This document shows positions 38,949 to 43,132 of a stretch of DNA of 45,445 bases, piece by piece. Location of the stretch: NCBI GenBank assembly GCA_937944885.1, contig CALFBB010000049.1:1-45445 (forward strand), in the 5' to 3' direction. The notes under the pieces are model-generated. The model had not been told where the DNA came from, did no database searches, and saw only the letters and a list, made by a program, of their open reading frames with translations. The DNA comes from an uncultured cyanobacterium. GTDB taxonomy: Bacteria; Cyanobacteriota; Cyanobacteriia; Thermostichales; Thermostichaceae. The translations under genes were made by a program, and so were the position numbers. The stretch's first letter is position 1, and each line of letters opens with the position of its first letter.

Positions 38949-43132
<4,184 letters not shown>

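Follow-up and report, generated by a model that had tools for sequence, protein, structure and literature searches.

The question raised by this locus is whether a run of nine G, which interrupts the cas10 gene of a type III-B (Cmr) CRISPR operon in the very codons of the cyclase active site, is a device for turning cyclic oligoadenylate (cOA) synthesis on and off, or the mark of a gene that is being lost. The window, that is, the whole stretch of DNA analysed (45,445 nucleotides), corresponds to contig 49 in its entirety, one of 62 in a 2.8 Mb genome, and a sequence-only reading of it had proposed the former, in the shape of a phase-variable locus or a programmed slippage site. The analysis presented here points elsewhere: the G9 tract is probably a recent one-base slippage mutation in an operon that is losing its function, and above all its cOA branch, and the switch reading is not supported.

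The nine G occupy positions 41277-41285 of the forward strand, on which all the genes of the operon lie, and are preceded by TAC and followed by TGATGATG. The upstream frame of cas10/cmr2 (38949-41288) runs for 779 codons, from the ATG at 38949 to ...RLIYGGG, and meets a TGA directly 3′ of the tract; it contains the HD motif, intact at residue 14, the Cmr2_N domain (PF12469, 3.9e-34; TIGR02577, 5.5e-29) and palm 1. Past this Y-G-G-G-stop, homology picks up one base out of register at G-G-D-D, in a shifted frame (41281-42018) that reads GGDDVLAYTNLWEWD... (GGDDVLAYTNL...) over 245 residues and contains the GGDD motif, the remaining part of palm 2 (Cas10-Cmr2_palm2, PF22335, 3.1e-7) and the C-terminal domain. 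When the break is read through, the gene comes to 1022 residues counted from the same ATG, and the Cas10 proteins of relatives align over it without interruption. The stop at the tract, its place in the GGDD loop and the 1022-codon gene had all been described from the letters of the sequence, and sequence, translation and homology agree that they are real in the assembly.

Cmr2/Cas10, Cmr3 and Cmr4 are encoded in one operon, in the same order as in relatives, and cmr3 (42020-43132; PF09700, 1.2e-70), cmr4 (43212-44030; TIGR02580, 1.6e-35) and a small gene in the cmr5 position (44106-44579), which matches no Pfam or NCBIfam family, are open and conserved. Two further broken genes of the same operon had been overlooked. 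The first, directly upstream of cas10, is a CARF-HEPN effector pseudogene of the Csx2/TIGR02221 type (from 37379 or 37429 to 38646), assigned by family search and homology, whose HEPN motif (RNDLAH) is still readable. Its homology is first recognizable at ...YSETVYYF, for indels have removed or scrambled both the first strand (TLLTT-G) and the start codon, and farther on an in-frame TGA (38068-38070) replaces a conserved Arg codon, which is CGC in the closest relative; the gene is intact in the four genus mates that have the operon. A search of the source genome for a second protein of the TIGR02221 family found none, and if this receiver is missing, no known local effector would be left to respond to cOA from Cas10. 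These lesions, moreover, cannot be reversed by slippage of a G tract.

The second is a RAMP-family gene at the other end of the operon (44859-45445), which is cut by the contig end and broken in frame at a run of seven G (44970-44976): homology places its Pro/Gly-rich N-terminus in one frame and the conserved SPWL...FVEYLRWMR in another, with no usable start codon between them. This tract is out of register in the direction opposite to that of cas10, and the 3′ half of the gene was not found elsewhere in the assembly. Taken together, the operon as assembled carries several independent inactivating lesions: the start loss and nonsense codon of the CARF-HEPN gene, the G9 of cas10 and the G7 of the RAMP gene.

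The surroundings of the operon may be described here as well. The only Cas1 found in the genome is on a separate contig, where it adjoins a different repeat, and the repeat family linked to Cmr (GTTTCCAATTTATAGGGATCCCCACAGAGTGGGGAC) has dwindled to three mini-arrays of about 2-3 copies each (L107, L109 and L110, on contigs 16 and 46), as against 37-96 forward pattern matches in the genus mates with the operon, and this scarcity counts in favor of decay. Gaps in the assembly could account for the absence of arrays and cas1, but dozens of repeats are retained in genus mates whose assemblies comprise 90 and 120 contigs. In the genus mate G001 (contig 1, near 2560123-2560965, L097), a Cas1 match beside the cmr operon has an in-frame TAA, from which decay of the locus may extend beyond the lineage of the window. 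Away from the operon, at 28234-28949 of the window, two tRNA-Lys genes (CTT and TTT anticodons) are found in a 109-base direct repeat of 86% identity, adjoining a tmRNA gene.

A break within a homopolymer brings base-calling error to mind, and this was approached through a sample of 1.0 Mb, about a third of the genome, in which frame likelihoods were scored by codon pairs and a tract was considered callable if the coding frame was clear to its left and right. Apart from the cas10 tract, about 82-94 coding G/C tracts of at least 7 were callable, depending on the threshold, and all were in frame, with none broken; the cas10 tract was thus the sole frame change by this score among callable coding tracts of that size. 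Four more flags, which came from different thresholds, from shorter tracts or from A/T tracts, proved to be ordinary gene boundaries, and two other tracts of nine (L021, L051), close to gene ends, remained uncalled. The RAMP tract was clear by homology and not callable by the codon-pair score, probably owing to the short Gly-rich linker that forms its left flank. The two operon tracts were broken in both cases, and none was called broken elsewhere (Fisher p about 2-3e-4), a value that is post hoc, mixes two calling methods and serves as a guide only. Homopolymer error is rejected as a general cause on this sample, and general base-calling error is an unlikely source of the breaks; the argument already drawn from the G8 of chrA, which is indeed in frame at 19723, is in this way strengthened.

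Why, then, should the tract fall precisely at the cyclase loop? Gly-Gly-Gly occurs only once in the translated Cas10, at the active site, and GGG is the commonest Gly codon of this genome (32% of Gly codon use), such that the active-site position of the tract is explained by these two properties, and the loop would be the most slippage-prone place in the gene. The spelling GGG-GGG-GGN is found at 4 of the 85 Gly-Gly-Gly sites in the long frames of the genome, runs of at least 8 G are common across the genus, and the cas10 tract is no longer than others, there being six G/C tracts of 9 in the 1.0 Mb. A slip-prone tract at an active site is therefore expected now and then, without selection for a switch. 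Consecutive GGG codons in the cyclase loop could even be a general weak spot of Cas10, since a single slip deletes the active site and everything downstream of it.

The comparison of the tract with related genomes, which had been proposed as a check of the switch, was made at two levels. In ten relatives (six cyanobacterial genomes identified by homology, in addition to the four genus mates) the motif Y-G/A/S-G-G-D-D is in frame in every case, with mixed Gly codons and a longest G run of 2-5; and when 386 cyanobacterial genomes, the source genome included, were searched for the motif with G8 and 0-3 extra bases, the source genome alone matched, and none of the other 385 did. As far as these genomes show, the tract is private to the source lineage. 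Other strains of the source species were sought in viral contigs, and none was found there. A conserved contingency tract is rejected on these absences, and neither a conserved switch nor a programmed slippage site is supported.

With regard to the age of the lesions, Cas10 shares 74% of its amino acids with that of the genus mate G005 before the break and 76% beyond it, that is, the part beyond the stop is as well conserved as the part before it; no relaxed dN/dS was seen in the 3′ part of cas10, with dS saturated in many pairs, and the divergence of the CARF gene does not exceed that of intact copies. In other words, no relaxed selection is visible in either, which leaves two possibilities: the decay is recent, or the breaks are miscalls. 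The lesions, if real, would then be recent.

The second possibility is the alternative that survives best. According to it, cas10 is intact in the genome, and the lengths of both G tracts were miscalled locally, close to a contig end where coverage was thin or mixed. We consider this unlikely, although it keeps about a fifth of the weight, since a miscalled G9 would give the same identity values. Both breaks lie less than 5 kb from the contig end, the conservation past the break shows no decay, and draft assemblies do carry such faults: in the closest relative of this cas10 (L017, assembly coverage 2.03) the gene falls into several frames at points remote from long homopolymers, and these splits are probably low-coverage errors. 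Against miscalled tracts speaks, firstly, the 1.0 Mb sample, where no other callable tract is out of frame; secondly, the opposite directions in which the cas10 and RAMP tracts are off; and finally, the nature of the CARF lesions, a substitution and start-region indels, which do not resemble errors in tract length.

Phase variation, in which slipped-strand changes of tract length would alternately enable and disable cas10, and perhaps also the RAMP gene, is improbable. It is true that a mononucleotide tract stands at the break, as in a contingency locus, and that the second operon tract is also out of frame while the other sampled coding tracts are in frame. However, G tracts of such length are frequent in the genus, this one has no counterpart in relatives, its length is not exceptional, its position is explained by codon use, and the receiver of cOA in the operon is irreversibly broken. 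In a survey of frame transitions, recurrence is required for phase variation or programmed shifts, and non-recurring breaks are assigned to indel mutation, error or gene overlap (PMC3711429); here neither tract nor break recurs in homologues. The broader form of this idea, that slippage in the cas10 loop and in the RAMP gene turns type III immunity on and off reversibly, another receiver in the genome standing in for the dead CARF effector, is slightly less probable again. If a switch were genuine and reversible, it would represent a novel way of controlling CRISPR, but the evidence points away from it. Thus, of what had been read from the sequence, the break at GGDD and the rejection of general error stand, and the switch is left unsupported, on the non-recurrence of the tract, on its explanation by codon use and on the irreversible CARF lesions. 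That reading had itself set against a switch the finding of only G9 plus other decay, and the assembly, at its own level, is close to that state.

Recoding is more doubtful still. Some full-length Cas10 could arise if, in a programmed or leaky manner, transcripts slipped at the G9 or ribosomes shifted by +1 at GGG-TGA, and the conservation of cas10 past the break would agree with it, as would the succession of GGG and TGA, which may be taken as the geometry of a +1 shift site; but the slippery site is conserved in no relative, the criteria of the survey for programmed shifts demand a site that recurs and is conserved (PMC3711429), and the CARF gene would stay unmended. Least probable of all, and very much so, is that the truncated Cas10 has been retained as a subunit that serves only as a DNase and makes no cOA, for although its HD motif is intact, and in Pyrococcus furiosus the HD DNase or the Csx1 RNase alone suffices for anti-plasmid immunity (PMC7192623), the break takes away the entire C-terminal domain as well as part of palm 2, well beyond the catalytic Asp residues, and the RAMP gene is broken too.

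In summary, recent decay of the operon is the explanation that we favor as probable. If the lesions are taken as real and not as assembly errors, the constraint on cas10 could have been lifted once the receiver was gone or immunity was no longer selected for, and the slip would then have struck the active-site loop, where the gene is most prone to it. The expected outcome would be the absence of cOA synthesis and probably of a working complex, while the N-terminal HD motif, cmr3, cmr4 and the gene in the cmr5 position are still open. What counts against decay is the openness of these last three genes, the absence of visible relaxed selection, and the contig end, which falls inside the Cmr operon about 4 kb beyond the tract. 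If real, the locus would show, as a snapshot from nature, how the signalling branch of a type III system is lost, receiver and cyclase being dead and the neighboring genes still open.

Among known systems, phase-variable contingency genes (a class treated in PMC3711429) share with this locus a mononucleotide tract at the frame break, and differ in the recurrence of tract or break in relatives; on phase-variable or homopolymer-controlled cas10, a literature search that took in few of the subscription journals found nothing relevant. The closest in gene content is the type III-B Cmr system with a Csx1/Csx2 effector, as in P. furiosus (PMC7192623) and, intact, in the genus mates G001, G002, G003 and G005: the genes are the same and so is their order (CARF-HEPN, cmr2, cmr3, cmr4, the cmr5-position gene and the RAMP gene), with HD and GGDD encoded, but three of the genes, those for the effector, Cmr2 and the RAMP protein, are broken in this operon. 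The lesions themselves recall the type III-A system of S. epidermidis, where the documented escapes from costly immunity include one-base deletions and nonsense mutations of cas10 and other genes (PMC3784566), just as we find a one-base indel in cas10 and a nonsense change in another gene of the operon; those mutants arose under laboratory selection and were checked by Sanger sequencing, while these are read from the assembly. The same authors speculate that reversible insertion of IS256 could regulate CRISPR immunity. Finally, in the 2025 classification, where about 97% of Cas10s are predicted to be active, the loss of cOA synthesis accompanies the loss of CARF genes in types III-G and III-H (PMC12669027), and the two losses go together here as well; but III-G and III-H are old lineages with replaced catalytic residues, and in this operon the loss would stem from a recent break of frame, in a III-B Cas10 that is otherwise ordinary.
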